This document shows, piece after piece, positions 22,154-57,219 of a stretch of 64,000 nucleotides of DNA (position 1 is the first letter of the stretch; each line of letters opens with the position of its first letter). Source of the DNA: Pannonibacter carbonis (lineage in GTDB: Bacteria > Pseudomonadota > Alphaproteobacteria > Rhizobiales > Stappiaceae); the NCBI RefSeq assembly GCF_003012935.1, contig NZ_PUDR01000007.1, positions 124,001 through 188,000 of the forward strand. The letters are read 5' to 3'. Position numbers and translations under genes: made by a program. The notes under the pieces were generated by a model, which worked only from the letters and a program-made list of their open reading frames with translations, had not been told where the DNA came from and ran no database searches.

Positions 22154-22244
22154 GGAGAGGTGGCCGAGTGGTCGAAGGCGCTCCCCTGCTAAGGGAGTAG
22201 ACGTCAAAAGCGTCTCGTGGGTTCGAATCCCATCCTCTCCGCCA
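22154..22244 (+). tRNA. tRNA-Ser (anticodon GCT)
   Basis: A complete serine tRNA. The acceptor stem pairs GGAGAGG (22,154) with CCTCTCC (ends 22,240). The D-arm has GGCCGAGTGGTCGAAGGC, and the anticodon stem CTCCC/GGGAG encloses loop CTGCTAA with GCT at 22,188-22,190. A long variable arm (GACGTC...AGCGTCTC) and the T-arm GTGGGTTCGAATCCCAT are typical of class II tRNAs. The CCA end is encoded. It lies at the junction between backbone genes and accessory DNA and so is a candidate insertion site. Confidence 0.97.
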
Positions 22245-26846: not shown

Positions 26847-26975
26847 CGTCAGACTTTCGTGCGCATCGCGCAATGTTCCGCTATTGTTCTTACGTTCCTT
26901 AAAGGATGCGTATAGCCGGTGCAAGCCACTTTGCGTACCCCCCAGGCGGTTGCGTGGGAATAATCTGGGATCCTC

Positions 26976-27398
26976 CTAGACATCGGCGCATGCGCGCGTC
27001 CCCCCTTCGGTGTCTTTTGTTAAGTGTGCGGAATGCTCTACCCACGCAAACGGAAACGGCTCCAGCACCCGCGCGAGCGTTACCTCCCTCCCCTGCTGCC
27101 CGTCCAGAATCGCCTCCACAATATCGGGGGCGAGCAACGTCAGGCGCAGGACGCGGGTCAGGTAGGATACGGCAATTCCGTCATGCTCAGCCAGTTCGGC
27201 GATGGTGGCGAACAACCCGGAATCCAGCATGCGTTTCCACCGAAAGGCGCGGGCCAGCGCCTTGACCAGCGTGTTGTCGGTCCTTCGCGGCTGCGCGGCG
27301 CCGTCAGGCATCTGCATCTCCTTTCGCCCGCCGCGCTTTACGACACGGAACGGGACGTGAATGGTGATGAATTCTGGAATTGGCGTGGCGCGGATCAT
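26976..27398 (-). CDS. Recombinase-module protein with HTH-like segment
   Basis: A 140-residue protein, last gene of the recombinase module. The start at 27,398 overlaps the recombinase stop by four bases. The centre has NTLVKALARAFRWKRMLDSG and then ATIAELAEHDGIAVSYLTRV, which reads as a helix-turn-helix of about 22 residues. The C-terminal part is LAPDIVEAILDGQQ, a pattern shared with small proteins next to serine recombinases in alphaproteobacterial islands. Probably a DNA-binding accessory factor; its role is inferred from position only. Confidence 0.8.
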   Translation of the reverse strand: MIRATPIPEFITIHVPFRVVKRGGRKEMQMPDGAAQPRRTDNTLVKALARAFRWKRMLDSGLFATIAELAEHDGIAVSYLTRVLRLTLLAPDIVEAILDGQQGREVTLARVLEPFPFAWVEHSAHLTKDTEGGTRACADV

Positions 27399-28720
27399 GC
27401 AGCTTTCTCCATGTCGCCGGCCAGCATCTCGCGCGCCAGCCCAGTCAGCCCGTCCGTGCGCAACCGTACGTTCAGTCCGTCCGTGCCTATGTCGACACGC
27501 TCGACCAGCAACGCCACGATGCGCGCCTGCTCGGCGGGGAAGAGTTCGTCCCATAGCGGGTCGAGCTGCAGTAGGGCCTTGCGCGCCTCGTCCTCGCTGA
27601 GGCTGCTCGCTGCGCTGCGCAGCGCCCTCCCCGTTCCGGTGACGATCTCCGGCTGGCGAAAGACAGCGCGGAGTTGGTCGATCACGGCGGCCTCGATCTC
27701 GCCAGCGGGCACACGGCCCACCGGACAGGAGCCGGCCCCGTGTTGCAGGACGGTCTGGCTGACGTAGTAGCGGTAGAGCTTGTCGCCGCTGCGCGTATGG
27801 CTCGGCGAAAAGGCTGCGCCATCCGGGCCGAACAGCAGGCCTTTCAGCAGCGCGGGCGTGTTAGCGCGGGTGCGTGCGGCGCGCTTGCGCGGGCTTTCTG
27901 CCAGGATGGCGTGAACCTTGTCCCAGGTCTCGCGGTCGATGATCGCCTCATGCTCGCCGGGATAGCTGTCGCCCTTGTGCACGGCTTCACCAAGGTAGGC
28001 GCGGTTGTTCAGCGTTCGGTAGATGAACTTCTTGTCGAAGCTGTTGCCGCGCACCGACCGGATGCCCCGGGCACCAAGTTCCCGCGCCAGCACCGTGCCG
28101 GAGCCGATCTCGATGAAGCGGGCGAAGATCCAGCGCACGTGCCCGGCGCGCTCTTCGTCAATGACCAGCTTCCTGTTCTCGGCCCGGTAGCCATAGGGCG
28201 GCATCCCGCCCATCCACATGCCCTTCTTGCGACTGGCGGCGACCTTGTCGCGGATGCGCTCGGCCGTGACCTCGCGCTCGAACTGGGCGAAGGACAGCAG
28301 GATGTTCAGCGTCAGCCGCCCCATGGAGGTGGTCGTGTTGAACGACTGGGTCACCGAGACAAAGGTCACGCCATTGCGGTCGAACACCTCGACCAGCTTG
28401 GCAAAGTCGGCCAGCGAGCGGCTGAGGCGGTCGATCTTGTAGACCACCACCACGTCGACCAGCCCGTCCTCGATGTCGGCCATCAGGCGCTTCAGGCCGG
28501 GGCGGTCCAGCGTGCCGCCCGAGATGCCGCCGTCGTCATACTGATCGCGGACCAGCACCCAGCCCTCGGACCGCTGGCTGGCGATATAGGCCTCGCAGGC
28601 CTCGCGCTGGGCATGCAGGCTGTTGAACTCCTGCTCCAGCCCCTCCTCGGAGGATTTCCGGGTGTAGACCGCGCAGCGCAGCTTGCGGGCGGTCTTCGAT
28701 TGTTCCTGCAGCTTTGTCAT
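27395..28720 (-). CDS. Serine recombinase (resolvase plus recombinase domains)
   Basis: A 441-residue serine recombinase. The N-terminal resolvase domain (about 14-160) has the nucleophile region AVYTRKSSEEG, the YDDGGISGGTLDRPGLKRLM segment and VVVYKIDRLSRSL. The middle recombinase domain (about 180-290) holds PPYGYRAENRKLVID and FIYRTLNNRAYLGEAVHKG. It lacks the very long coiled-coil C-terminus of large phage integrases. It is transcribed leftward, overlapping the DUF2924 gene by four bases. It likely carries out site-specific integration or excision of the island or phage. Confidence 0.93.
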   Translation of the reverse strand: MTKLQEQSKTARKLRCAVYTRKSSEEGLEQEFNSLHAQREACEAYIASQRSEGWVLVRDQYDDGGISGGTLDRPGLKRLMADIEDGLVDVVVVYKIDRLSRSLADFAKLVEVFDRNGVTFVSVTQSFNTTTSMGRLTLNILLSFAQFEREVTAERIRDKVAASRKKGMWMGGMPPYGYRAENRKLVIDEERAGHVRWIFARFIEIGSGTVLARELGARGIRSVRGNSFDKKFIYRTLNNRAYLGEAVHKGDSYPGEHEAIIDRETWDKVHAILAESPRKRAARTRANTPALLKGLLFGPDGAAFSPSHTRSGDKLYRYYVSQTVLQHGAGSCPVGRVPAGEIEAAVIDQLRAVFRQPEIVTGTGRALRSAASSLSEDEARKALLQLDPLWDELFPAEQARIVALLVERVDIGTDGLNVRLRTDGLTGLAREMLAGDMEKAA

Positions 28721-29172
28721 CTCCGGCCCCGCAGGTTCTTGAGGCCGAAGAACACCCAGCCATTCCAGCGGGTGCCGGTGATGGCGCGGGCGATGGCCGA
28801 CAGCGACTTGTAGGGACGCCCCTGCCATTCGTAGCCGTTGGCGGTAACCGTGACGATGTGCTCCGCGCCCTGCCATTCGCGCAGCAGCCGCGTTCCGGTA
28901 ATCGGCCGGTCGCGGCCTGCGCGGATGCCGCGCTTCTTCTTGTCGCCGCCGTCCAGTTCCTCGCCCAGCCGCTCTAGCCGCCGGACCGTCTCGGGGTTCA
29001 GCCCGCCATAGGCGAGTTCCTGGATGCGATAGGCTAGCCGGCTTTCCAGGTAGCGCCGGTTGAACGGCGGCGGCTCGCTGTCAAACAGATCCCGCCACTG
29101 CTTCTTCAGGTCGGGCGTCGGCGTGGTCTTGAGCGCGGCCAGGCGCGCAGGGATGGGGTCGGGCGTGTTCAT
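28717..29172 (-). CDS. DUF2924 domain protein
   Basis: A 151-residue DUF2924 protein. Diagnostic strings are LKKQWRDLFDSEPPPFNRRY, LESRLAYRIQELAYGGL, then GTRLLREWQG and ITGTRWNGWVFFGLKNLR near the C-terminus. The ATG at 29,172 follows CGGAG on the leftward strand. In many alphaproteobacterial islands this family precedes a serine recombinase of just this type. The function is not established; DNA binding that helps recombination is a plausible inference. Confidence 0.92.
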   Translation of the reverse strand: MNTPDPIPARLAALKTTPTPDLKKQWRDLFDSEPPPFNRRYLESRLAYRIQELAYGGLNPETVRRLERLGEELDGGDKKKRGIRAGRDRPITGTRLLREWQGAEHIVTVTANGYEWQGRPYKSLSAIARAITGTRWNGWVFFGLKNLRGRR

Positions 29173-38803: not shown

Positions 38804-41389
38804 ATGATCGACCTCAACGACATCGCGGTCCCGAAGACCCGGCACGATCTGGCGGCGGTGAAAGAGCGGCTTGCCTGCACGGCCGCCGACTGGCTGCCGG
38901 GGCTCTTCCCCGAGGCCCGGCTCGCGCGGGACCGTCGTTCCCTGCGCTGCGCGGACCTCTCCGGTCGACCGCCGCGCAAGGAGGGCTCCTGCACCATCCA
39001 TCTCGACGGCCCCTATGCCGGCTGGGGCTTCGACTACGCCACCGGCGAGCGGGCCGGTCCCATCGACCTGATCGCGCAGGCGACCGGTCTTTGTGACGGG
39101 TCGCTCTTCGACGAGGCAGCGCGGCTCGCCGGGATGGATCGCCCTGCGCCGCAGCCTGCGCCTAAGTCGCCCATGCACACACGTCCCGACCACTCGGCCG
39201 AGATCGCGCGTCTGGTCGGTGGGGCCGTGCCCCTCGCGGGCACGCCGGGCGAGACCTATCTGCGCGCCCGCGGGCTCTCGGATCCCGGATCGCCCGATCT
39301 GCTGTTCCACCCCGATCTTCCGGACTTCGACAGCTGCCGCGGCTGGCCCGGCCTGATCGCCATCCTGCGGTTGCATGACGGGCAGCGCGCGCCGGGTATC
39401 CACCGCACGTTCCTGCTCGACGACGGCAGCACCAAGGCGCCTCCGGGCAAGAAGATGCTGGGCAGTGTTAAGGATGCCGTGGTCCGGCTGTTCCCGATGC
39501 CGGAGGACGGCCACATCGGCATCGCCGAGGGCATCGAGACCGCGCTCGCCGCGCATGCGCTCTTTGGCATGTCGGTCTGGGCGGCGCTGTCGGCCGACGG
39601 TCTGGCGCGGTTCCAGTGGCCCGAGAGCACCCGGCGCGTCACCATCTACGCAGATGTCGGGGACGCCGGCCTCCAGGCGGGAGCGACGCTCTCGGACCGT
39701 CTGAACCGCGCCGACATCCCGAACGAGATCGTCGCCCCGCTGCATGGTGACGACTTCAACGACGATCTGCAGCGCGGCGCTCGCGCCGAGGATTACGCGC
39801 GCTCGGCAGACACCACATCGGTGTCGCAGGCCGAGGAAACGGAGACGGCCACCCCGATTGTCGCGTCTGTCGATGATCCCGCCACCCTGATCGCCGCGGC
39901 CGATACGCTGACCAACCCACCCGAGTTCGAAGCCCTGTCCACGCTGCTCGGGCGCATCGCGCTGGCGAGGCTCGATCCTCTGCCCGAACGGCAGGTCATC
40001 GCGCGGATCAAGTCCGCGACCGGCATCGGCATCTCGGTCCTGACCCAGCAGCTGGCCGAACTCGGCCGCCGCGTGAACGCCACCGGCGATCCGCACGCCC
40101 CGATCCCGAAGCCTGCCTGGTTCAGGCGCCTCCGGCTCGACCTCGCGGGGGCACCCGAGCGCAACGAGGCCAATGTCATCGTGGCGCTGACATCCGATCC
40201 TGCCTTCGCCGGCGTTCTCGCTTTCGACGAGTTCGGGCAGGAGATCGTGGTGCGCCAGCCGCTGCCGTGGGATTGTGCGACCGCGCCACTCCCGCGCCCC
40301 TGGGAGGACGCCGACGACATCCGCACCGCCGAATGGCTGCAGCTGCGCGGCATCAACGTGGCGCCGGTGGTCGTCAGCCGCGCCGTCGGCGCCGTTGCCC
40401 GCGAGCTGCGCATCCATCCCGTCCGCGACTGGCTCGACACCCTGACATGGGACGGCACGCCCCGGATGGAGACCTGGACCAGCGCCTATCTCGGCGCCGA
40501 CCCCACCGCGTTCAACCACACCATCGGCGCGCTCTGGCTGATCTCGGCCGTCGCCCGCATCTACCGCCCCGGCGTGAAGGCCGACCACATGCTGATCCTC
40601 GAGGGGCCGCAGGGCGCCCGCAAGTCCACTGCAATCAAGGTACTGGCCGGCGAGGAATGGTTCACCGACGAGCTGCCCGAGCTCGGGTCCAAGGACGCGG
40701 CGCTGCACATGCAGGGCGTTTGGATCGTCGAGATCGCCGAACTCGACGCCATCGGCCGCGCCGAGGTCTCGCGCATCAAGGCGTTCCTGACGCGAACCAC
40801 CGACCGCTTCCGCCCGCCCTATGGCCGCTACACAGTCGAGGTGCCGCGCCAGTGCGTGTTCGCCGGCACCGTGAACCCCGACACCTATCTGCGCGACGAG
40901 ACCGGCAACCGCCGCTTCTGGCCTCTCCGCTGCGGCGCCATCGACATCGCGGCGCTCGCCCGCGACCGGGACCAGCTCTGGGCCGAGGCCGTCCACCGTT
41001 TCCGAGCCGGCGCAATCTGGTGGATCGACGACCCAGCGCTGCTGGCGGAAGCCCGCGAGGAACAGGGCCGCCGCTACCAGTCCGATGCCTGGGACGACCT
41101 GATCGAACACTGGCTGACGCACGAGATCCGCACCGTCTCCGATGGCTTCCCCGACTACGGCAACTCCCGCACCGAGAGCGTGCCGCGGCCGGAGCCGCTG
41201 CGGGACGTGTCGGTCGGCGAGATCCTCGAGGAGGCGATAGGGCTCGAGCCTGCCCGTTGGACCAGACGCGATCAGACGCGTGTTGCGGCGTATCTGAAGG
41301 CGAATGGCTGGAAACGGGAACAAGTGCGCATTGGGTCAGGCCGCAACGCGCCGAGAGTGTGGCGATATCGCCGACGCATGGAAGATTAG
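38804..41389 (+). CDS. VapE-type primase/helicase fusion
   Basis: An 861-residue protein with at least two parts. The N-terminal third has a zinc-free primase-like region with GWGFDYATGERAGPIDLIAQ and a Toprim-like region: GIAEGIETALAAHALFG holds the Glu near residue 245, and TIYADVGDAGLQAG replaces the usual DxD-type motif. The C-terminal half is a virulence-associated E (VapE) ATPase with Walker A EGPQGARKSTAIKVLAG near residue 598, Walker B-like WIVEIAELDA and TVEVPRQCVFAGTVNPDTYL. It would serve as the replicative primase/helicase of the element. Preceded by a GGGGCG-type weak ribosome site. Confidence 0.87.
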   Translation: MIDLNDIAVPKTRHDLAAVKERLACTAADWLPGLFPEARLARDRRSLRCADLSGRPPRKEGSCTIHLDGPYAGWGFDYATGERAGPIDLIAQATGLCDGSLFDEAARLAGMDRPAPQPAPKSPMHTRPDHSAEIARLVGGAVPLAGTPGETYLRARGLSDPGSPDLLFHPDLPDFDSCRGWPGLIAILRLHDGQRAPGIHRTFLLDDGSTKAPPGKKMLGSVKDAVVRLFPMPEDGHIGIAEGIETALAAHALFGMSVWAALSADGLARFQWPESTRRVTIYADVGDAGLQAGATLSDRLNRADIPNEIVAPLHGDDFNDDLQRGARAEDYARSADTTSVSQAEETETATPIVASVDDPATLIAAADTLTNPPEFEALSTLLGRIALARLDPLPERQVIARIKSATGIGISVLTQQLAELGRRVNATGDPHAPIPKPAWFRRLRLDLAGAPERNEANVIVALTSDPAFAGVLAFDEFGQEIVVRQPLPWDCATAPLPRPWEDADDIRTAEWLQLRGINVAPVVVSRAVGAVARELRIHPVRDWLDTLTWDGTPRMETWTSAYLGADPTAFNHTIGALWLISAVARIYRPGVKADHMLILEGPQGARKSTAIKVLAGEEWFTDELPELGSKDAALHMQGVWIVEIAELDAIGRAEVSRIKAFLTRTTDRFRPPYGRYTVEVPRQCVFAGTVNPDTYLRDETGNRRFWPLRCGAIDIAALARDRDQLWAEAVHRFRAGAIWWIDDPALLAEAREEQGRRYQSDAWDDLIEHWLTHEIRTVSDGFPDYGNSRTESVPRPEPLRDVSVGEILEEAIGLEPARWTRRDQTRVAAYLKANGWKREQVRIGSGRNAPRVWRYRRRMED

Positions 41390-41404
41390 CGCTAGGCCTC
41401 GAGC

Positions 41405-41719
41405 CTACCCTGCTTCGGCATAGAGCGCGAAGAGGTCCGGTGTGTCGGCGTCTCGCTTTCGCGAAAGTCGCTCACCCAAGTGGAGGCAGGGATGCTTGAT
41501 CCTTGAGAGTCCTTTTCGCCCCTCGAAATGTGCGCTCCCGCCGTTGGGCATTCGCACCGTGATGACTTCGGCACCGCACATAGGGCATTGGTGACGAAGG
41601 CTTCGACGCTTCTTCTCGTCTGGCGAATGCTGCAGCACCCAGCTTGCCCTGACTTCAATAGTCCTTCCGTCCGGCAGCCGCCGCGAATGTGAGCGTCTTG
41701 GAATCCAGCGGTGACCCAT
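41405..41719 (-). CDS. Small zinc-ribbon-like protein, last gene of the sbcDC operon
   Basis: A 104-residue basic protein. A CPMCGAEVITVRMPNG motif and later IKHPCLHLGERLSR supply Cys and His residues for a possible zinc site. The N-terminus (RWIPRRSHSRRLPDGRTIEV) is strongly basic. Its ATG overlaps the stop of the SbcC-like gene by one base, so it belongs to the same leftward operon. I do not recognise a family. The tight linkage to sbcDC suggests a partner role, perhaps DNA recognition. Confidence 0.75.
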   Translation of the reverse strand: MGHRWIPRRSHSRRLPDGRTIEVRASWVLQHSPDEKKRRSLRHQCPMCGAEVITVRMPNGGSAHFEGRKGLSRIKHPCLHLGERLSRKRDADTPDLFALYAEAG

Positions 41720-44700
41720 CAGACAAGCCCTCTTTCTTCCACACTACTCCCGGAGATCCCTTTTCTGACATAGAAGCCGTTGGGGATCGCCTCCTGGACG
41801 AGCGGCACATGCGAAATCAGACCCACGGCACGGTTCTGTCGGACGATGGAGTTGAGGACCTGGAGTACCTGGTCGAGCGTGCCGGACCCGTTTTCGGTGT
41901 CGAGGCTTCCAAACCCTTCGTCGATGAAAATCGTGTCAAGCCGCACCTTGCCGCTCGCACTTTCGACCACGTCGGCAAGACCGAGTGCGAGAGCGAGCGC
42001 GGCAATGAACGTCTCGCCACCTGAGAGGGTGCTCGTGGCGCGCGATTTCCCGGTGTGAACATCGAACACCTGGATGCCAAGCCCGCGGCTACCTCGTCCG
42101 GCCCCGTCGAGATCTCGCTCGAGCCTGTAGCGGCCGGAGGTCATTGGCGCGAGCCGCAAGTTAGCCGCTTCCAGCACTTGGTCGAACATCGTGCCGATTG
42201 CGAATGTCTCCAACGACAGTCTTTGCGAGTTCTGCCCGTTTACCAGAGCTGCCAGTTCGCGCAGCGGGCCGGATGCAGCTTCAGCTTCATCAAGCTTGCG
42301 CAGGGTCTCCTCCAACCCCGTTCTCAGCTTATCCAGATGATCGACACGGCTCTGGGCGGCGACGCGCTCTTCTATCGCCCTGCCGAATGCCTCGGCATGG
42401 GTCTGGTGCGTTTCCCGTAGTGCTTCGAGATCAGGCCGGGACATCCCTTGGATCGCAGAGGCGGCATCTGTGGCTGCATCGGACGCACTCTTGTGCTCGC
42501 GCCGGTAGGTCTCGACGGCTTCCCTATCCTCATCGAGAGTTTCGATGGCCGGCTTGAGAGACTGAAACGCCTCTGCTGTGAGGCCAGCGCCAGCCAGTCT
42601 TGTTCGGAAGACCTCCGCCGCCTTCTGATGGCGCGTCTTGCTGTCCGCGAGCGCCTTGTCCGCGCTTTCGAGATCCTTGACCGTGCCGAGTGCTTTTTCG
42701 CGAGCGGAGTTCAGCGCCTTTTCCGCCGCGGTCCGCGCCGCCTGAAGCGACTCCAGCGACCCGGTCACCTTCTCGAGTGTGGCCGCGAGCGCCGGCACAT
42801 CGCGGAGGTTCTCCGGCACCTCTGCGAGCCTGCCATCGCGCGCCGCTTTGGCCTCAGTTGCCTTGTTCCGCCGCTCATCGAAGCAGTCTCGCAACTCATC
42901 GCGTTTCCGCTCCAATTCCTCGATCTGCAGTTCCAGTTCCTCGATCCCGGTCTCCGCGGCAAGAATGTCGACCCGGGGCCCAAGCGCTGCGAGTGCGTCG
43001 TCTTCACGACCGATCTGTGCCGCGATGACGGCTGCACGCTCCGCTGGCGGTTCAAGGGTGGACAAGCGCTTCTGTCGCTCCTCGAGCGTCGCTTGCACCC
43101 CGACCAGTGCTTCGCCAGCTTGCCGGGCTTCACGATCGGCGGCCAGCCATGCTTCTCGTGACTCTCGGAATGCCTTGTCCAGGCCGGCACTACCGATTTC
43201 GCCAGTCGCCGGCGCAGGATGTTCGGTTGCGCCGCAGACCGGACATGGCGACCCTGCTTCCAGTCTCGTCGCAAGGTGCAGCGCCTGTGCGGCCGCGAGA
43301 TTTCTTTCGGCCGTCTCATAATCATCTCGCGCCTTCTCGGCCTTTCCGGCCGCAGCTTCCGACTTCCGCAGTTGTTCTTCGACAGCGGCCTGAGCCGTTG
43401 CAACATCCTGCAAGGCGCCCTCGTAGGGCTTGGCGGCCAGATGCCGTTTGTCGAGCTCTGCGCGCCGGCCCGCGATCTCGGCGCGCTTCGCCTCCGTTTC
43501 GCGTGCAGCTTTCAGCTCGGCGCTTTTCGTGATGCGCTTCTCCTGGAGCTTGGTCAGTTGTGCCTTTGCCGCCTGAAAAGCGTTGTCGGCGTCCCGCTGC
43601 TCTTTCAGCGCGGTTTCGACTGCCTGATTGCTATCGGCTGCTGCCTCGAGGATTCGACCATACCGCTCCAGTTCATCGCTTCTCCGGCGCAGGGTTTCGA
43701 CCTCATCGGCACGGTCTTCCTCACGCCGGAGCGCCTCTGCCGCCTTTTCTGCTTGTTTCGCGGCGATATCGGCGGCCTTGTCTGCCTCTTCGCGCTTGGT
43801 CTCGGCTTCACCAACCTCGCGTTCGGCATCCCTCACACGTTCCTCGACATCGATCAGACCGCGCGCGCGCTCGGCTTGTCGGACCTGCTCGGCAAGCGCC
43901 TCGATATCGTCCTTCCGCGCCTCAAGTGCGCGAAGCCGCTCCCTCATCTTTTCGGCCGCCGCGAACTTTTCCTCGATGGCCTCCGCCTGGTGCAACGCCC
44001 TCTCGGCAACTTCCGCCGTCGCCTTCTTGGTTTCTTCGATCGCGCGAAGTTCCGCACATCTCGCAGTTGCGGTTTCGATGCCCGCGATCAGTGCATCGGT
44101 GCTCTCGAATCCTTCTGCCGCGAGCTGCCTGGCACAGAGCGCACGTTCATCCCGCACCTGCCGTTCAGCCTCATCGGCTGCGGACTTGAGATCGGCCATG
44201 AGCTTCTCGTACAGCGAGACATCGAAGAGTTCTCGCAGGATTTCGAGACGCTCTTTCGTCTTGGCCGAAAGGAACTTCTCGAAGCGCCCTTGCGGCAGAA
44301 GGACGATTTGCCGGAACTGCTCAGAGCCGTATCCGAGCATCTCCATGACAGCCGCGTCGACGTCGCGCACCTTCTTCTCGGCTACGATCTTGCCCTGTGC
44401 CGCATCTGTAATTGCGTCGAGCGACATTCCGGTCGCATCGAACAGATAAGCTTCGTGCGTGCTACGGGTCTCGCCCTCACCGCGCGCCTTGGGTCGCATC
44501 TGGTCGGGTCGGCGAAGCACGACATATCGCCGCTCACCAATGTCGAATACGAACTCTGCCTCGGTCATTACATCCGGATCGGCGTGATCCGAGCGCAGCG
44601 ACGGAGCGTCTTGCTCCGCCTTGGCCGCTTCTCCAAAGAGCGCAAAGGTCATTGCGCTGAAGATGGTCGATTTGCCTGACCCCGTCTGTCCGTATATGCC

Positions 44701-44793
44701 GAAGAGGCCCGCCTTGACGGCATCCCGGAAGTCGATGACGACCCGGCTAGGATATGGACCGAACGCCTGAAGTGTGAGCCGAACCGGTCTCAT
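41719..44793 (-). CDS. sbcC: SbcC/Rad50-like ATPase
   Basis: A 1024-residue ABC-type ATPase with the Rad50 layout. The N-terminal half-domain has Walker A YGQTGSGKST at residues 34-43 and the Q-loop segment EQFRQIVLLPQGRFEKFL. Two long coiled coils (about 200-500 and 540-850) flank a zinc hook CPVCG at residues 517-521. The C-terminal half has signature LSGGETFIAALALALGLA and Walker B TIFIDEGFGSLD. With SbcD it forms an ATP-dependent nuclease that opens hairpins and processes DNA ends. Here it lies inside phage genes, so it is probably a cargo copy and not the housekeeping one. Confidence 0.95.
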   Translation of the reverse strand: MRPVRLTLQAFGPYPSRVVIDFRDAVKAGLFGIYGQTGSGKSTIFSAMTFALFGEAAKAEQDAPSLRSDHADPDVMTEAEFVFDIGERRYVVLRRPDQMRPKARGEGETRSTHEAYLFDATGMSLDAITDAAQGKIVAEKKVRDVDAAVMEMLGYGSEQFRQIVLLPQGRFEKFLSAKTKERLEILRELFDVSLYEKLMADLKSAADEAERQVRDERALCARQLAAEGFESTDALIAGIETATARCAELRAIEETKKATAEVAERALHQAEAIEEKFAAAEKMRERLRALEARKDDIEALAEQVRQAERARGLIDVEERVRDAEREVGEAETKREEADKAADIAAKQAEKAAEALRREEDRADEVETLRRRSDELERYGRILEAAADSNQAVETALKEQRDADNAFQAAKAQLTKLQEKRITKSAELKAARETEAKRAEIAGRRAELDKRHLAAKPYEGALQDVATAQAAVEEQLRKSEAAAGKAEKARDDYETAERNLAAAQALHLATRLEAGSPCPVCGATEHPAPATGEIGSAGLDKAFRESREAWLAADREARQAGEALVGVQATLEERQKRLSTLEPPAERAAVIAAQIGREDDALAALGPRVDILAAETGIEELELQIEELERKRDELRDCFDERRNKATEAKAARDGRLAEVPENLRDVPALAATLEKVTGSLESLQAARTAAEKALNSAREKALGTVKDLESADKALADSKTRHQKAAEVFRTRLAGAGLTAEAFQSLKPAIETLDEDREAVETYRREHKSASDAATDAASAIQGMSRPDLEALRETHQTHAEAFGRAIEERVAAQSRVDHLDKLRTGLEETLRKLDEAEAASGPLRELAALVNGQNSQRLSLETFAIGTMFDQVLEAANLRLAPMTSGRYRLERDLDGAGRGSRGLGIQVFDVHTGKSRATSTLSGGETFIAALALALGLADVVESASGKVRLDTIFIDEGFGSLDTENGSGTLDQVLQVLNSIVRQNRAVGLISHVPLVQEAIPNGFYVRKGISGSSVEERGLV

Positions 44794-45938
44794 TGCACAT
44801 CCTCTGTCTCACGCAGGCGACCAAGGGCCGATGCTACGACAGCCAGTTCTTTTTCCGAGATCCGGTCTTCGCGCACATGCTCGAGGAAGTCGCCAATGAC
44901 TTCGACAGGGCTCGCAGCCGCCGGAGCGCGCCCCGCCAGCGATTTGACTTCTGGCGCGCGATCGTTCCGCTCGTAAACAAGTTCACAAGCGTTCGGGAAC
45001 ACGTCGCGGATGCGCTTCATTCCATCGATCACGGGCGTATCGTCGGTAAGAACGATCTTGATGAAATCGTCAGATCGGTCCGCGAGGAGAAGCTCTGCGT
45101 GTCGTCCCCTCAAAACGCGCACCCGACGAATGGGCTCGAAGGGAATGGTCTCTACCGTCGTTCGGCCGACCGCATCGATCTCGACGAGGCTCATCGACTT
45201 CTGGCAGTCAGATTCATCAAATCCGAAAGCCAATGGCGATCCCGAATACCGGATATGAGATGCACCGACCGATTGCGGCCGGTGCAGATGCCCGAGCGCC
45301 ACATAATGAGCACCTTCGAACACGGATGAACTGACCGTCTCGACGCCCCCCACTCGAGTGAGAGGCCGCTCACTTTCGCTGCTCGCCGCCCCAGCTACAA
45401 AAGCATGCGAAACGACGACCCATCGCGCGCCATCGGGAATGTTACGCCGACTGCAAGCCACCTGAGCCGCGAGGATGTCCTCGGTGGTGTGGAGAGCTTC
45501 ATCGGCGAAACATTCGCGGGCGGCATACTCATAAGCGAAGGGCAACCCTGTGAACGCCACGGGTCCGTATGCGTCACTGAGGATCAGAGGTTTCTCGTCA
45601 GCACTGATGGCTCCGCGTATCAACGCGCGCCGTGTGTCGGTCATGATCGCCATGGATGCGATTCGATCACCAGAGTCGTGATTGCCGGCGATCATCACCA
45701 CGGCTGCCTCAGTCTCCGAGGCCACGCGCGCCAGGAACCCATTGAACTGGCGCACAGCAGACGTCGGTGGGGCAGCCCGATCAAATATATCTCCCGCAAT
45801 AACAAGGACATCAATACCATTCGACGTGATCGCCGAAACGATCTGATCGAGAACTGCGCCGTGGTCGGCATCCAGAGGGATCCCGTTCAACTGACGCCCG
45901 AGATGAAGGTCGGCGGTGTGGAGAATCCTCATTGCCAT
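44790..45938 (-). CDS. sbcD: SbcD/Mre11-like nuclease
   Basis: A 382-residue metallophosphoesterase-fold nuclease. Metal ligands are visible: Asp10 and His12 in TADLHLG, Asp50 in AGDIFDR, Asn86 and His87 in AGNHDSG, and later VVSHAFVAGA and ALGHLHRPQSV. A C-terminal capping domain follows residue 260. It is the nuclease partner of SbcC, whose start overlaps its stop by four bases. The ATG at 45,938 has almost no space behind the -10-like TTATAC on this strand, so the mRNA may be leaderless; a second ATG at 45,932 is possible. Confidence 0.95.
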   Translation of the reverse strand: MAMRILHTADLHLGRQLNGIPLDADHGAVLDQIVSAITSNGIDVLVIAGDIFDRAAPPTSAVRQFNGFLARVASETEAAVVMIAGNHDSGDRIASMAIMTDTRRALIRGAISADEKPLILSDAYGPVAFTGLPFAYEYAARECFADEALHTTEDILAAQVACSRRNIPDGARWVVVSHAFVAGAASSESERPLTRVGGVETVSSSVFEGAHYVALGHLHRPQSVGASHIRYSGSPLAFGFDESDCQKSMSLVEIDAVGRTTVETIPFEPIRRVRVLRGRHAELLLADRSDDFIKIVLTDDTPVIDGMKRIRDVFPNACELVYERNDRAPEVKSLAGRAPAAASPVEVIGDFLEHVREDRISEKELAVVASALGRLRETEDVQ

Positions 45939-45943
45939 AGTCC

Positions 45944-45967
45944 GTATAATTTTTAATCGTATAATTT
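45944..45967. promoter_or_regulatory. Direct repeat GTATAATTT in the sbcD/WYL divergent promoter
   Basis: GTATAATTT occurs at 45,944-45,952 and again at 45,959-45,967, a 15-base period. Each copy holds a perfect TATAAT for the rightward strand and TTATAC for the leftward strand. The 71-base gap separates the SbcD start from the WYL regulator start. A regulator bound here would cover promoters in both directions. Confidence 0.6.
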
Positions 45968-46009
45968 CTAGATGGACATTTCGTCAGGAGTCAAGGTAGG
46001 GATGCACCC

Positions 46010-46828
46010 ATGACGCTCGACGACCTCAAGCATGCTCAGAGAGAGCGCCTGATCTTTCTGGACCGCTGCCTGACTTGGCGGGGCATGGCGAACCGCAGGG
46101 ATCTGATCGAGCGCTTCGGTATCTCGACCGCGCAGGCGGCGCTGGACTTCCGTGTCTACCTAGGTCTCGCGCGCAGCACGCCGCCCATCTACGATCCGGT
46201 GCGAAAGACCTACATCGCCGCGAGCGAGCACGAGCCCTTAGCACCATCCGGCCTGACCGAAGCCTTCGATATCTTGGCGAGCGACGATGAAAGCACGCCT
46301 TCGGCCGCGTTGCCCCGACCAGAAAGGAAGGCAGATCGGAGGACCATCGCGCTTCTTCATCAAGCAATCAGGTCGGGGAAAGCCGTCCACGTCCGATACA
46401 CATCCATGTCGTCCGGCGCCGACGATGGGCAGTGGATCGCCCCGACCCGCTTCACGTCGGATGGTGAAAGCGTTCACGTGCGTGCCCACAGCTTCAAGCA
46501 CGGCGAATATCGGAACTACCTCCCGATCCGCATCGATCCTGACAGCTCGTTCGAGGAGAAACTCCTGGCTGAGCCACTGCCGGTGGACGTGGATTGGAAC
46601 ACTCGGGCAATCATCTGGCTGCGCCCGAAGTCAGGGCTTTCGGATCGACAAGCCAGCGTAGTCCGAAGGGAATTTGGCTTTGAGGGAGAGTTCCTGCGCG
46701 TTGAAACGCGGAAGGCACTGGAGTTCTTCTTCAATCGGCGTTGGGGACTGGATGAGAAGGGCGCGCGGCTTGAGCGGGCGAAAACTGAATACGAGCCGAT
46801 CGCGCCGGCATGGCCGAACGATCATTGA
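46010..46828 (+). CDS. WYL-domain regulator, BrxR/CapW-like
   Basis: A 272-residue regulator. The N-terminal winged helix (about 8-70) reads RLIFLDRCLTWRGMANRRDL and FGISTAQAALDFRVYLGLA, the pattern seen in BrxR/CapW proteins. A WYL domain (about 110-190) has AIRSGKAVHVRYTSMSSG, RFTSDGESVHVRAHSFKHGE and FRNYL-like YRNYLPIRI. A C-terminal domain follows. Proteins of this class repress anti-phage defence operons next to them and are thought to sense a nucleic-acid signal. It is divergent from sbcD across a 71-base promoter with direct repeats and probably represses the sbcDC operon. Confidence 0.88.
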   Translation: MTLDDLKHAQRERLIFLDRCLTWRGMANRRDLIERFGISTAQAALDFRVYLGLARSTPPIYDPVRKTYIAASEHEPLAPSGLTEAFDILASDDESTPSAALPRPERKADRRTIALLHQAIRSGKAVHVRYTSMSSGADDGQWIAPTRFTSDGESVHVRAHSFKHGEYRNYLPIRIDPDSSFEEKLLAEPLPVDVDWNTRAIIWLRPKSGLSDRQASVVRREFGFEGEFLRVETRKALEFFFNRRWGLDEKGARLERAKTEYEPIAPAWPNDH

Positions 46829-46860
46829 GAGCGCGGCAAGTGGTAACCTTTGAGCGGCTC

Positions 46861-47152
46861 GTGTCACCAACCGCCAGCGTCATCAACCGTGACACCATCC
46901 CCACGCGAAACTCGGTGACACGAGAAACTCTGCAATTCCAACGGTGTCACCGACCTTGCCGAGTGCCACCAACCGATTTTCTACCTTCATGTGAAGACCG
47001 ACATAGCGGGTGGCGCCCATCTCATCTCTACGAGGGAAATGATAGGGGGCATTGGTGACACCAAGAATGGTGACAGCGCCAGTTAATATATTGAAAAATA
47101 TTAGAAAGATCGTGTCACCAATCGAAAAAGGGCTTCACATAGTCGGTGACAT
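46861..47152. other. Origin-like repeat cluster with AT-rich tract
   Basis: Six exact copies of GTGWCAC start at 46,861, 46,889, 46,915, 46,944, 47,055 and 47,112, with near-copies at 46,963 (GTGCCAC), 47,070 (GTGACAG) and 47,146 (GTGACAT). Several share the longer form GTGTCACCAACCG. Between the copies at 47,070 and 47,112 lies a tract, 47,081-47,110, in which 26 of 30 bases are A or T. Repeats plus an AT-rich stretch resemble a replication origin with iterons. The whole gap 46,829-47,264 has no gene. Confidence 0.55.
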
Positions 47153-47264
47153 CGCTTGAACGGCGATAGCTGATAGCGGCTCCGGACCGGCTTGTTTCGT
47201 TGGGCTTTCCTAAGTATTCTGTGAACGATCAAAGCCGAAGGCCCACAGCTTGTGAGCCTTCACG

Positions 47265-47789
47265 ATGCACACACCGATCCCCGCGCAGGACGTTCGCCCC
47301 GAGCCGGGCGCGATTTTTCGATCCTGCATTCTCACCCTCGACCTTGCAACCACGACCGGCTGGGCGCTTCGCAGCCATGACGGACTGATCACCAGTGGCA
47401 CGGTCAGCTTTCGACCCGGCCGCTTCGACGGCGGTGGCATGCGGTTTCTCCGCTTCACCAACTGGCTGACCGAACTCGATCGGCTGTCCGGGCCCATCGC
47501 CGCCATCTGGTTCGAGGAGGTCCGTCGGCACGCCGGCACTGACGCGGCCCACATCTACGGCGGGCTGATGGCCACGCTTACATCGTGGGCCGAACTGCGC
47601 GGCATTCCCTATGAGGGCGTGCCGGTCGGAACATGGAAACGATGCGTCTGTGGCAAGGGCAACGCCAGCAAGGACGAAGTCGTCGCCGCCATGGTCGCCA
47701 GAGGCTTTGCGCCTTCCAGCTCCGATGAGGCCGACGCATTGGCCATCCTCCATTGGGCCATCGCGACGAACGGAGGCATCGATGGCTGA
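47265..47789 (+). CDS. RuvC-like Holliday junction resolvase of phage type
   Basis: A 174-residue protein with an RNase H fold. ILTLDLATTTGWALRSHDG holds the first catalytic Asp near residue 26, AAIWFEEVRRHAGTDAAHIY holds the Glu near residue 89, and SSSDEADALAILHW supplies the last Asp residues near 156-159. It cuts branched DNA before packaging. It follows the origin-like region and overlaps the endonuclease VII gene by eight bases. Confidence 0.85.
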   Translation: MHTPIPAQDVRPEPGAIFRSCILTLDLATTTGWALRSHDGLITSGTVSFRPGRFDGGGMRFLRFTNWLTELDRLSGPIAAIWFEEVRRHAGTDAAHIYGGLMATLTSWAELRGIPYEGVPVGTWKRCVCGKGNASKDEVVAAMVARGFAPSSSDEADALAILHWAIATNGGIDG

Positions 47790-48626: not shown

Positions 48627-49047
48627 GTGGACGCCTACTATGGTCGAGGACCGGCTCGAGAGCGCGGCCGACGTGTTCCGGTCGCAGCCCGAGGTGAAGC
48701 CGCAGGGCTACTTCAACGCCTGGCCCGAGTACTTCCACAGCTTCGCCGACCAGGTCGGCCAGGAGCCTCGGATGCGCCGACCCAAGCCCGGGCCGCGTGA
48801 CATCACGCAGGCCGAGGATGCTCTGCTCTGGCTGCGCTGGCTCGAAAAGGACGATGCTCGCCTGCTCTGGCTGCGTGCCAACCGGACGCCCTGGAAGCCG
48901 ATCTGCTGGGAACTCGGCATCAGCCGCGCCACCGCCAACCGGCGCTGGCAATACGGGATCGCGGTCATCGTCTGGCGGCTGAACGGCAGGCGCGTACCGA
49001 AGAAGCGGTCGATGGAGTTCGTAGTGGCGAAGGCGGGCCAGGCTTGA
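48619..49047 (+). CDS. DUF6362-like phage protein
   Basis: A 142-residue protein. MVEDRLESAADVFRSQPEVK, then PGPRDITQAEDALLWLRWLE and the helix-turn-helix-like PICWELGISRATANRRWQYG match the phage family I know as DUF6362. The HTH suggests DNA binding, possibly at packaging or late transcription sites. It ends inside a 28-base perfect inverted repeat. Confidence 0.8.
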   Translation: MAEWTPTMVEDRLESAADVFRSQPEVKPQGYFNAWPEYFHSFADQVGQEPRMRRPKPGPRDITQAEDALLWLRWLEKDDARLLWLRANRTPWKPICWELGISRATANRRWQYGIAVIVWRLNGRRVPKKRSMEFVVAKAGQA

Positions 49048-49070
49048 ATAGCGACGGAAGGCTATTCAAG
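49043..49070. terminator. Perfect 10-base inverted repeat before the fic gene
   Basis: CTTGAATAGC and GCTATTCAAG enclose an eight-base loop. The left arm includes the stop codon of the DUF6362-like gene. No T-run follows. It may terminate the early operon or serve as an operator for the fic gene, whose ATG is 51 bases downstream. Confidence 0.5.
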
Positions 49071-49121
49071 CTTGACGCCACATGTCTTAATAAGGACTGG
49101 TGGTTGTTAAAGGGTCGAACG

Positions 49122-54701: not shown

Positions 54702-55286
54702 ATGCAGGGCATGAGCGAGCGCCAGTACGCTGCCCATGTCGGGCTGTCACGCGGAGCGATCCAGAAGGCGAAGCTCGCCGAGCGGCTGGTTCTCCATCCC
54801 GACGGCAGCATCGACGCGGCCGCCAGCGACATGCGGCGTGCCGAGATGACGGATCCGTCCAAGACCCGCAAACCGCCCGCGCCGAAGCTGAAGCCCGTGC
54901 CCGAGGCCGCGGTTGCCGCTGTTGGCGACACGCTGCGCGAACAGGGGCTGGCGGTTCCGGCGGTTGGCGGTGGCACGACCTTCCTGCAGGCCAAGACGGC
55001 AAATGAGGTTCTGAAGGCGCAGGAACGGCGCATCCGCCTCCAGAAGCTGAAAGGGGACCTGGTCGACCGCGCCAGGGCGGAGACCCTGATGTTCCGGCTC
55101 GCGCGCGATGAACGCGATGCGTGGGTGACGTGGCCGGCGCGCGTCGCAGCCCTGATGGCCTCGGAACTGACCGCGGTGCTGGGGAGCGCAGCCACGGTGG
55201 AGCCGGCCTTGATGCAGAAGGTTCTGGAGGCCCATGTCCGCGCCCAGCTCGAGACCCTCTGCGAGGTACGCCCCGGACTTGGATGA
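54702..55286 (+). CDS. Phage terminase small subunit
   Basis: A 194-residue protein. An N-terminal helix-turn-helix reads SERQYAAHVGLSRGAIQKAK, as in Nu1-like small terminases. After a Pro/Lys-rich linker, a helical C-terminal part has NEVLKAQERRIRLQKLKGDL, DRARAETLMFRLARDERDAW and MQKVLEAHVRAQLETL. It recognises the packaging site and forms the terminase with the large subunit. The two genes overlap by 53 bases. A start at 54,711 would remove three residues. Confidence 0.85.
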   Translation: MQGMSERQYAAHVGLSRGAIQKAKLAERLVLHPDGSIDAAASDMRRAEMTDPSKTRKPPAPKLKPVPEAAVAAVGDTLREQGLAVPAVGGGTTFLQAKTANEVLKAQERRIRLQKLKGDLVDRARAETLMFRLARDERDAWVTWPARVAALMASELTAVLGSAATVEPALMQKVLEAHVRAQLETLCEVRPGLG

Positions 55287-57219
55287 CGGCGTTTCTGACT
55301 TCGACGGTGCGGACCGGCTGATCCGGACCTGGCGCGAGGGATTGCGACCTGATCCGGATCTCTCCGTCTCGCAATGGGCGGACCGGCATCGCCGCCTGGC
55401 CTCGCGGGCCTCCGCAGAACCGGGACAGTACCGGACCGCCCGCACACCCTACATGCGCGAGATCATGGACCGGCTGTCGCCGGGCGATCCGACCCAGCGG
55501 GTGGTGTTCATGAAGGCCGCGCAGGTCGGGGCGACCGAGGCCGGCAACAACTGGATCGGCTTCGTGATCCACCAGGCGCCGGGGCCAATGCTGGCGGTCC
55601 AGCCGACCGTAGAACTGGCGAAACGCAACTCGCGTCAGCGGATCGACCCGCTGATCGACGAGAGCCCCGAGTTGCGGGAGCGGGTGAAGCCGGCGCGGTC
55701 GCGCGATGCGGGCAACACGATGCTGTCGAAGGAGTTCGCGGGCGGCATCCTGATCATGACCGGGGCGAACTCGGCCGTGGGACTGCGCTCCACCCCTGCC
55801 CGCTACATCTTCCTCGACGAGGTCGACGCTTATCCGGCGTCCGCCGATGAGGAAGGCGATCCGGTCACGCTGGCCGAGGCGCGGTCGCTGACCTTCTCCC
55901 ACCGGCGCAAGGTGCTGCTGGTCTCGACACCGACCATCCGCGGGCTGAGCCGCATCGAGCGGGAGTTCGAGGCCAGCGACCAGCGGCGGTTCTTCATGCC
56001 GTGCCCGCATTGCGGCGCGATGCAGTGGCTGAAGTTCGAGCGGCTGCACTGGGAGAAGGGTCGCCCGGAAACGGCCGAATACATCTGCGAGGGCTGCGAC
56101 GCTGCAATCGCGGAGCATCACAAGACGCAGATGCTGGACGCAGGCGAATGGCGCGCGACCGCCACAGCCACCGATCCGACAACGGTCGGCTACCACCTCT
56201 CGGCGCTCTATTCGCCGGTGGGCTGGCTCAGCTGGCAGCGGATCGCGCGGGCGCATGAGGCGGCACGGGGCAGCGACGAGGCGATGCGGGCGTTCCGGAA
56301 CACCATCCTCGGCGAGACCTGGATGGAGACCGGCGAGGCGCCAGACTGGCAACGGCTGGCTGACCGGCGCGAGGCCTGGAAGGCGGGGACCGTTCCGGCG
56401 GGCGGCCTGTTCCTGACTGCTGGCGCCGACGTTCAGAAGGACCGGATCGAGGTTGATGTGTGGGCCTGGGGCCGGGGCTTGGAAAGCTGGCTTGTCGACC
56501 ACATCGTGATCGACGGAGGCCCCGGCGATCCGGCCTGCTGGCAGCAGTTGACCGGGTTGCTGGGACGCTCCTGGATCCATGCCTCAGGCCAGCCGGTGTT
56601 GCTCACCCGGCTCGCGATCGACACCGGCTTTGAGACCAGCGCGGTCTATGCCTGGTCGCGGCAGGTGGGATGGACGCAGGTTGCGCCGGTCAAGGGCGTC
56701 GAAGGGTTCACCCGGACGAGCCCTGTGACCGGACCGACGTTTGTTGACGCAACGGTTGCGGGCAAACGTCTGCGGCGCGGCGCGCGGCTATGGACCGTCG
56801 CGACCTCGACCTTCAAGGCGGAGACCTATCGCTTCCTGCGACAGGACCGGCCGACGAAGGAGGATCAGGCAGCCGGCGACAGCTGCCCGCCGGGAACGAT
56901 CCACCTGCCGGACTGGGCAGACGGTGAATGGCTGAAACAGCTGACGGCCGAGCAACTGGTGACGGTTCGCACGAAGCGCGGCTTCGCAAGGCTGGAATGG
57001 CACAAGCTCAGGGAACGCAACGAGGCTCTGGATTGCCGGGTCTACGCCCGCGCCGCCGCCTGGATCGCAGGGGTTGACCGGTGGCCCGAAGCGCGTTGGG
57101 CCGAAATGGAGCGCCAACTGACCATTGAGACTGAGCGGATCCCTCACGACCCACCCACCAAATCCCTGGCTCGGCGCATTGCCAACCGGCGAACGGTGCG
57201 CTCGAGTTACATGGGGTGA
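55234..57219 (+). CDS. Phage terminase large subunit (GpA family)
   Basis: A 661-residue packaging ATPase-nuclease of the lambda GpA type. The ATPase has the modified Walker A FMKAAQVGATEAGNNW near residue 90 and Walker B YIFLDEVDAYPASADEE near residue 190. A zinc pair is visible in MPCPHCGAMQWL and ICEGCDA. The nuclease domain begins near residue 395 with TAGADVQKDRIEVDVWAWGR. It cuts and pumps phage DNA into proheads. The size is normal. Confidence 0.95.
   Translation: MSAPSSRPSARYAPDLDDGVSDFDGADRLIRTWREGLRPDPDLSVSQWADRHRRLASRASAEPGQYRTARTPYMREIMDRLSPGDPTQRVVFMKAAQVGATEAGNNWIGFVIHQAPGPMLAVQPTVELAKRNSRQRIDPLIDESPELRERVKPARSRDAGNTMLSKEFAGGILIMTGANSAVGLRSTPARYIFLDEVDAYPASADEEGDPVTLAEARSLTFSHRRKVLLVSTPTIRGLSRIEREFEASDQRRFFMPCPHCGAMQWLKFERLHWEKGRPETAEYICEGCDAAIAEHHKTQMLDAGEWRATATATDPTTVGYHLSALYSPVGWLSWQRIARAHEAARGSDEAMRAFRNTILGETWMETGEAPDWQRLADRREAWKAGTVPAGGLFLTAGADVQKDRIEVDVWAWGRGLESWLVDHIVIDGGPGDPACWQQLTGLLGRSWIHASGQPVLLTRLAIDTGFETSAVYAWSRQVGWTQVAPVKGVEGFTRTSPVTGPTFVDATVAGKRLRRGARLWTVATSTFKAETYRFLRQDRPTKEDQAAGDSCPPGTIHLPDWADGEWLKQLTAEQLVTVRTKRGFARLEWHKLRERNEALDCRVYARAAAWIAGVDRWPEARWAEMERQLTIETERIPHDPPTKSLARRIANRRTVRSSYMG

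Follow-up and report, generated by a model that had tools for sequence, protein, structure and literature searches.

Why does a prophage carry the genes of an SbcC–SbcD (Rad50–Mre11-type) DNA nuclease, set on the strand opposite to the neighbouring phage genes and divergent from a regulator of the kind that controls immune operons? The question is raised by a 64,000-nucleotide stretch of Pannonibacter carbonis DNA (NCBI RefSeq assembly GCF_003012935.1, contig NZ_PUDR01000007.1, positions 124,001 to 188,000; hereafter "the window", whose own numbering is used below). In it, a leftward operon of sbcD, sbcC and a gene for a small zinc-ribbon-like protein (41405–45938; hereafter the zinc gene) is divergent from a gene for a WYL-domain regulator (46010–46828), with a VapE/Toprim primase-helicase gene on one side and a gene for a RuvC-like resolvase on the other. 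This arrangement, which an earlier sequence-only reading of the window had taken to be a candidate defence system among phage replication genes, is borne out by the open reading frames (ORFs): sbcD and sbcC overlap by 4 bp and sbcC and the zinc gene by 1 bp, and 71 bp separate sbcD from the divergent WYL gene. Our analysis suggests that this mobile, WYL-linked SbcCD cassette is probably a previously undescribed defence system. More specifically, we put at roughly 70% the probability that it acts as one mobile and regulated DNA-end nuclease module, which would be inducible and would protect its carrier, and with it the host cell, from invading DNA or from other phages.

The strongest evidence for this comes from related prophages, which carry known defence families as cargo in the same slot. 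Among the best 80 of 224 IMG/VR relatives of the primase (our own included), the gap between primase and RuvC genes measures 437–535 bp in 33 and 688–872 bp in 3, holds an insert of more than 1.5 kb in 32 (our own included), and could not be closed in 12, where the stretch ends before a RuvC gene. As the 436 bp left between the cassette and RuvC in the window are close to the size of an empty site, the cassette seems to have been inserted cleanly, right after the primase gene. We took 14 loci, namely 13 of the 31 other filled slots and L227, whose contig stops before RuvC, and compared 20 of their cargo ORFs with PADLOC models, at E thresholds of 1e-8 in the first run and 1e-6 in the second; the ORFs were called by a simple longest-ORF script, so that some of the tested proteins may be in the wrong frame. 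Seven of the 14 loci match known defence families, six of them at E values from 2e-122 to 0 and one weakly. These are Dsr1 (L227, 3e-135), AbiEii (L232, 1e-204), IetAS (L236), a CBASS cyclase with its phospholipase (L255), Lamassu LmuA and LmuB (L305, 1e-167 and 3e-199) and PD-Lambda-2_B (L250, 1e-141; weaker in L256, 9e-21). The primases of L227, L232, L236, L250 and L305 are 92–93% identical to that of our prophage. Thus, the slot often carries defence cargo, of which the WYL–SbcCD cassette appears to be one more type, and to judge from these matches the primase–RuvC slot is a defence-cargo hotspot of this phage family. As a separate observation, the cargo of L228, L231, L234, L244, L259 and L301, which gave no PADLOC match, provides candidates for unknown systems; that of L231 has, by eye, a GHKL-ATPase-like start, and has relatives in L240 and L300.

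The cassette also moves as a unit. Over 5.4 kb it has a single match of 87–90% DNA identity in each of four records, with no similarity outside it: Mesorhizobium L051 (41385–46860), Fluviibacterium L052 and a plasmid of Sulfitobacter sp. THAF37 (L034; both 41428–46800), and a plasmid of Roseovarius indicus (L130; 41487–46800). Because identity at this level is confined to the cassette, it must have moved between the prophage and unrelated surroundings, and between Mesorhizobium and Rhodobacterales. Tabrizicola L050 has the cassette plus much of the surrounding prophage in common with ours, at 76–90% identity. These sharp borders, seen both in DNA identity and in the slot comparison, agree with the earlier description of a cargo locus. 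We rejected the idea that the cassette is specific to phages, since most of the copies found lie on plasmids or in other genomes.

Regulator and nuclease are linked well beyond this prophage. Across 385 genomes of the class (our own included), the WYL gene (E ≤ 1e-30) is found in five and SbcD (E ≤ 1e-50) in six; all five WYL genomes also carry SbcD, divergent and 71–80 bp apart by match coordinates, and the sixth SbcD genome (48% identity) has no WYL gene in its 7.5-kb contig. When 84,980 species genomes were scanned and the best 80 of 571 SbcD relatives kept, a divergent WYL gene accompanies 12 of the 14 loci at 47% identity or more and none of the 66 at 41% or less (two of these 66 hold less than 1 kb upstream). 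This fits the claim of the sequence-only reading that SbcCD normally has no such regulator. On plasmids, searches with WYL, SbcC and zinc proteins return largely the same records. Chance togetherness of the cassette genes is not supported by these counts, although WYL-less relatives exist. In an SbcD tree of 72 rows (45 that are WYL-linked or above 44% identity, plus 27 of 75 other loci), one clade of 46 rows with support 100/100 contains all 40 WYL-linked copies and six WYL-less ones. The distribution of the link needs five changes on this tree, a number as low as which was reached in none of 500 shuffles; as these amount to five gains or losses, the tree does not establish that the link arose only once.

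Turning to the regulator, its WYL domain scores 23.5 bits against PF13280, barely above the cut-off of 21.8, and the protein matches PDB entries over nearly its full length: 7qfz at 1.5e-24 (residues 3–248 of 272), CapW at 1.6e-23 and BrxR 7t8k at 1.9e-14. Entry 7qfz is labelled "WYL domain-containing protein" and is, we presume, BrxR. With near-full-length similarity across the winged helix-turn-helix, the WYL domain and the C-terminal extension, the protein can be assigned by its sequence to the BrxR/CapW family, as the earlier reading had proposed. It has been reported that CapW/BrxR proteins repress until they bind single-stranded DNA (ssDNA; PMC13373217), that BrxR acts as a repressor and binds inverted repeats (PMC9122601), and that ssDNA activates PafBC by way of its WYL domains (PMC11804915). 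In light of these reports, we read the cassette as one that would stay silent until ssDNA, or a related sign of damage, arises from an infecting phage or plasmid.

The region between the divergent genes is conserved, with a WYL–sbcD spacer of 69–88 bp in all 40 WYL-linked loci. An element of the form TTGAC ... T[CA][CT]AT upstream of sbcD occurs in 40 of 40 WYL-linked loci, as against none of 80 other SbcD loci (which include one place twice, L065 and L323 having identical upstream sequence) and 34 of 8000 shuffled sequences; the pattern is post hoc, in that 13 of the 40 upstream sequences were inspected before any pattern was written, and a stricter version, which gave 20 of 40 versus 0 of 26, was loosened after inspection. 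A stricter pattern has a single occurrence in the whole Pannonibacter genome, at 45959–45994 on the minus strand of the window. Behind the element lies an AT-rich palindrome; that of the window is imperfect, but some loci have a perfect one, such as TTATACGTATAA of L038. The plasmid copies L036 and L134 have SbcD proteins that are 98% identical and WYL regulators that are 40% identical, indicating that the regulator was swapped and that spacer, promoter element and layout were kept.

In some loci (L036, L038, L039, L041, L044, L056, L063, L135 and L137), tblastn shows a small WGR-domain gene directly behind the WYL gene, mostly overlapping it; the L036 copy matches PF05406. WGR domains bind DNA nicks or ends, and such a gene would fit a DNA-end theme.

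The nuclease itself appears to be intact. SbcD has Metallophos and SbcD_C domains above cut-off, scores 152 bits against TIGR00619 (cut-off 77.65) and matches SbcD in the PDB at 5.4e-43, and it thus has the Mre11-type phosphoesterase motifs and the SbcD_C domain that define its class. Residues D10, H12, D50, N86, H87, H178, H217 and H219, which by analogy with E. coli SbcD we take to be the metal-binding and catalytic residues, are invariant in 15 aligned members. Its start may be at the third codon, to judge from a conserved methionine. SbcC has the N- and C-terminal parts of a Rad50-type ABC ATPase (Pfam AAA_23, 9.2e-22, and SbcC_Walker_B, 3.4e-10), a zinc hook and an adjoining sbcD gene, and its best PDB match is the SbcC of SbcCD entries (6s6v and others, 9.3e-34); it does not, however, reach the cut-offs that NCBIfam sets for its named SbcC models (278.6 bits against 478.5 for TIGR00618). 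The motifs are Walker A GQTGSGKS, zinc hook CPVC, signature TLSGGE and Walker B IFIDEGFGSLD, and all four, including the Walker B glutamate, are kept in nearly all complete SbcC members. Among the exceptions, the Walker B motif was not found in L053 and the hook was not found by pattern in L055, and L063 and L131 are cut short. With the motifs of both subunits preserved, an active end- and hairpin-processing nuclease would be expected.

The third gene is more variable. The 104-residue protein of the window has a CPxCG motif (here CPMCG), a GG..HFEG..GL..KHPC motif and a conserved C-terminal TPDLF, which resembles a sliding-clamp binding motif. Searches of Pfam, PHROGs, NCBIfam and PADLOC assign it to no family at E ≤ 1e-3; among its weaker Pfam matches (best E 0.0023 among 11 members) many are zinc ribbons. 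Its AlphaFold 2 model is of low confidence (predicted local distance difference test score 63) and mostly beta, a Foldseek search with this model gave no fold at E ≤ 0.001, and a PDB profile search with the family gave nothing below E 0.25. We considered and rejected an HNH nuclease for this protein, on the grounds of the mostly beta model, the lack of a Foldseek match and the weak matches to what are often zinc ribbons. A true HNH gene, different from the zinc gene, occupies the same place in L038 and L044 (PF13395, 7.9e-07 for the L038 copy). By tblastn, the third gene of the 40 WYL-linked loci is the zinc gene in 23, the HNH gene in two and neither in 15. Conversely, in the stretches retrieved from several plasmids the zinc gene is present but sbcDC is not intact; at least one of these, L048, is a remnant with a piece of the SbcC end, and in L046 the zinc gene lies beside a nucleotidyltransferase/SLATT pair. 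In L040 its match is split in two pieces. Since it is not constant among WYL-linked loci, the zinc gene falls outside the core: it is a frequent accessory, and the third gene is swappable. The trio proposed in the sequence-only reading therefore stands for somewhat more than half of the WYL-linked loci and not as a fixed unit.

From these parts a mode of action can be proposed. In an uninduced cell, the WYL protein would occupy the operator between the divergent genes and keep sbcDC off. A signal of infection or DNA damage, most likely ssDNA bound by the WYL domain, would lift repression and allow an intact Mre11–Rad50 (SbcCD) complex to be made. This complex would then cut foreign DNA that is replicating, at its ends, hairpins and forks and also where ends are branched or blocked by protein, and the zinc-ribbon protein, or the HNH nuclease in other versions, may load it, license it or supply it with nicks.

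On plasmids, the cassette frequently has defence genes as neighbours. We considered 21 annotated loci, leaving degenerate, zinc-only and unannotated ones uncounted; these include close kin (L034, L130 and L131; L133, L138 and L139). From 12 of the 21, 18 neighbour proteins, picked mainly for defence-like names, were compared with PADLOC models at E thresholds of 1e-3 (first run, also used for the cassette genes) and 1e-8 (second run). A specific model matches at E < 1e-50 beside the cassette in eight of the 21 loci: Shango SngABC (L034), BrxL (L036), a CBASS cyclase with a JAB protein (L038), SIR2-HerA (L041), GajAB (L044), ThsB (L133), OLD (L135) and a type II restriction endonuclease (L138). 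The protein tested in L037, an error-prone polymerase, gave no match or a weak one. Taken together with the seven of 14 sister slots, these neighbourhoods present the cassette as a horizontally mobile unit in defence hotspots and islands. The clustering with defence genes that the earlier reading had asked after is thus partial, as no clear defence gene was seen in another eight of the 21 plasmid loci.

Several observations weigh against a defence role. In the slot comparison, the other seven of the 14 tested loci had no PADLOC match at the thresholds used, L254 reaching just 6e-7 with capP. The plasmid loci in which no clear defence gene was seen within about 8 kb are L037, L040, L042, L043, L132, L134, L136 and L137; the long UvrD-type helicases in L040 and L137 that match RTasHel/GajB models (2.6e-61 and 4.3e-77) were counted as generic homology. 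In five further loci (L035, L039, L130, L131 and L139) defence genes were recognised by product name alone, and two proteins tested from L039 gave no or weak PADLOC matches. The plasmid-neighbour counts are descriptive, made without a matched control of random positions. In pattern-limited scans of IMG/VR, one contig besides this provirus has WYL and SbcD genes of this kind (L143/L147), and one has the end of a zinc gene next to a primase with 93% identity (L141/L229); L144 and L145, from the same scans, have short, weak WYL matches. The zinc gene went undetected in 17 of the 40 WYL-linked loci, three of which are truncated or interrupted (L063 and L147 break off within sbcC, and a transposase lies there in L132). 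Finally, the six WYL-less SbcCD copies nest inside the WYL-linked SbcD clade. One of them, L054, lies on chromosome 1 of Agrobacterium vitis; L059 and L321 have a common neighbourhood, by eye truA-fmt-def; L320 lies on a 122.8-kb contig of a genome of the host's genus; and L319 and L322 lie on short contigs. One SbcCD lineage therefore comprises both the cassette type and a small number of other copies, of which at least some are chromosomal. The sequence-only reading had named independent occurrence of the zinc and WYL genes, or grouping of sbcDC with housekeeping copies, as grounds for abandoning it: the zinc gene without intact sbcDC and the six WYL-less copies go some way in that direction, but the WYL gene is linked to SbcD in five of five genomes.

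The main rival is a DNA-damage-inducible repair module, in which an ssDNA-responsive WYL protein and SbcCD would help the element and its host to survive damage during replication, hairpins or broken ends, and the defence neighbours would be no more than other cargo of the same variable regions. SbcCD is classically a repair nuclease, same-clade copies without a WYL gene include the chromosomal L054 and the truA-fmt-def pair, the Pannonibacter genome (4.78 Mb) has no second match to SbcC or SbcD at E ≤ 0.001, and the plasmid cassette L037 abuts the error-prone polymerase gene and a damage-inducible gene. The WYL regulators PafBC, SiwR and DriD are reported to drive damage responses via ssDNA (PMC11804915 and PMC12288472), and the latter paper describes Myxococcus xanthus SbcC1D1 as upregulated on mitomycin C, independently of LexA. 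We nevertheless consider a repair module unlikely, because the regulator matches structures of CapW and BrxR, which control immune operons, with no PafBC entry among its five PDB matches, because the slot that the cassette occupies holds known defence systems in sister phages, and because co-location with several different defence systems is repeated. The module might also be concerned mainly with competition between elements, destroying incoming plasmids or conjugating DNA in the manner of Wadjet or DdmABC rather than phages. Its plasmid distribution would suit this: the 33 plasmid records that carry the zinc gene include 20 classed as conjugative and 10 classed as mobilizable, and on several Roseobacter-group plasmids the cassette lies beside coupling-protein or relaxase genes, mostly between those and type IV secretion genes. 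Yet it also sits in a temperate-phage slot with anti-phage types of cargo, and circular plasmids should offer SbcCD no free ends except during transfer or replication, which makes exclusion of this kind a distinctly improbable main function. An ordinary phage recombination pair, akin to T4 gp46/gp47 and serving the prophage's own replication, is the least credible explanation: phages do encode SbcCD-like proteins (PHROG 77, 100 and 19980) and the genes lie near a primase, but in the best 80 of 224 primase loci the pair occurs in this one alone, plus a contig ending in the zinc gene (12 stretches stop before RuvC), and the same cassette is found on plasmids, runs on the strand opposite to the phage genes and has its own immune-type regulator.

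We therefore return to an inducible defence module as the preferred reading. With a little less confidence, we would go on to describe an alphaproteobacterial immune system in which an intact Mre11–Rad50 effector is combined with an ssDNA-sensing repressor of the BrxR/CapW type, a swappable third gene (zinc-ribbon or HNH) and even a swappable regulator, and which may be a living parallel to the step from Rad50–Mre11 repair to SMC-type immunity.

The element that carries the cassette in Pannonibacter is clearly of phage origin, its surroundings encoding a recombinase/integrase, a Sak4-type annealing protein, the large subunit of terminase, a portal and a head protease (Table 1). The same element is catalogued in IMG/VR, as viral contig UViG_2833391513_000003 with a length of 58365 bp, and coordinate arithmetic places its left end near position 22531, adjoining a tRNA-Ser(GCT) gene (22154–22244). 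At this tRNA end lies a type III restriction-modification pair (22531–26924; PADLOC MTase_III 4e-68, REase_III 2.9e-10), and a Fic-family protein (49044–50297; PADLOC SoFic 4.6e-118) is encoded directly after a DUF6362 gene of the same prophage, so that the prophage has at least two further loci of defence type. The non-coding region between cassette and RuvC, compared with that of L246 (12572–13012) and of sister phages, contains repeated words: GGTGACA in 7 copies in the window, GTGGGAC in 10–11 copies in four of five small-gap phages examined, and CCCAACC (5–10 copies), which is the most frequent word in 18 of the 20 phages with filled slots that were examined, as against a maximum of 6 copies of any word in shuffled sequences. 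This iteron-like region resembles a phage replication origin that has diverged into specificity groups.

Table 1 Features of the prophage and of the SbcCD cassette, in window coordinates
Feature	Position	Strand	Basis or remark
Serine-type integrase/DNA-invertase recombinase, probable prophage integrase	27395..28876	-	phrog_95 9.7e-113, phrog_125 1e-45
VapE/Toprim primase-helicase, left border of cargo slot	38804..41389	+	Pfam, PHROGs, relatives
Mobile cassette, extent	41385..46860		DNA identity to four other records without flank similarity
Zinc-ribbon-like protein, 104 aa	41405..41719	-	ORF, homologues; accessory gene
sbcC, Rad50-like ATPase, 1024 aa	41719..44793	-	ORF, profile matches, motifs
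sbcD, Mre11-like nuclease, 382 aa	44790..45938	-	ORF, profile matches, aligned residues
Putative divergent promoter/operator region, 71 bp	45939..46009		TTGACT, TCCAT, AT-rich imperfect palindrome TTATACG..TAA before sbcD
BrxR/CapW-family WYL transcriptional regulator, 272 aa	46010..46828	+	ORF, Pfam, PDB matches
Iteron-like non-coding region, 436 bp, 7x GGTGACA/TGTCACC	46829..47264		candidate phage replication origin
RuvC-like resolvase, right border of cargo slot	47265..47789	+	PHROGs
Terminase large subunit, marks element as phage	55234..57219	+	phrog_15 7.9e-260

If the proposed reading is true, the repair nuclease SbcCD (Mre11–Rad50) has itself been turned into a regulated immune module that moves horizontally. 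One could then test in what way defence of the Rad50/SMC type, as in Lamassu, is related to the repair machinery, and how such a nuclease comes to be directed at foreign DNA and not at that of the host. The link to BrxR/CapW predicts a concrete signal, ssDNA, and the promoter element, the intact active sites and the swappable third gene are direct targets for mutation. The slot formed by primase, cargo, iteron-like region and RuvC is, in addition, a practical place in which to seek further unknown defence systems, given that seven of the 14 tested loci had no PADLOC match or a very weak one.

How, then, does the cassette compare with systems already named? No system model in PADLOC-DB 2.0.0 (2023) fits the cassette genes, and our search of the open-access literature, which did not extend to supplementary files, subscription journals, preprints outside PMC or newer defence databases, found no SbcCD–WYL defence combination, in keeping with the earlier statement that no named system was known. 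With housekeeping SbcCD the cassette has in common its two subunits, the overlapping sbcD–sbcC order and the nuclease, ATPase and zinc-hook motifs. Unlike housekeeping SbcCD, it has a divergent WYL regulator of the BrxR/CapW type and, in 25 of 40 loci, a zinc-ribbon or HNH gene; it is mobile, on plasmids and in a prophage, and falls in its own SbcD clade, though with the six WYL-less copies. Wadjet (JetABCD) likewise combines a coiled-coil ABC ATPase with a nuclease and acts on extrachromosomal DNA (PMC10586767), but it is an SMC-type complex with the JetD nuclease; identity with Wadjet was rejected, the match of our SbcC to JetC being at chance level (16.7 bits). Closer in setting is Lamassu/DdmABC, which has a Rad50-like coiled-coil ATPase in a mobile defence context, and whose LmuAB genes occupy the same slot in the sister phage L305. 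PMC10586767 proposes a logic of DNA-end or hairpin sensing for Lamassu and describes LmuB as a protein of about 650 residues that generally has Q in place of E in Walker B. The SbcC of the cassette, by comparison, is full-length at 1024 residues, retains the Walker B glutamate and is accompanied by an Mre11-type nuclease subunit, with no LmuA or LmuC. Identity with Lamassu was likewise rejected, given this glutamate, the lack of LmuA and a best LmuB score of 72.9 bits, compared with 661.8 for the LmuB of L305. With the BrxR/CapW-controlled operons of BREX, CBASS and Bub, finally, the cassette shares the regulator family, as judged by sequence, and a palindrome-like element behind the promoter element, but the operon under control is SbcCD; the main text of PMC9122601 mentions neither SbcC nor SbcD and does not have SbcCD among the BrxR-associated systems that it names. 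Pending a plating assay, the cassette would thus be placed as a nuclease-based immunity of the SMC/Rad50 type under BrxR/CapW-type control.

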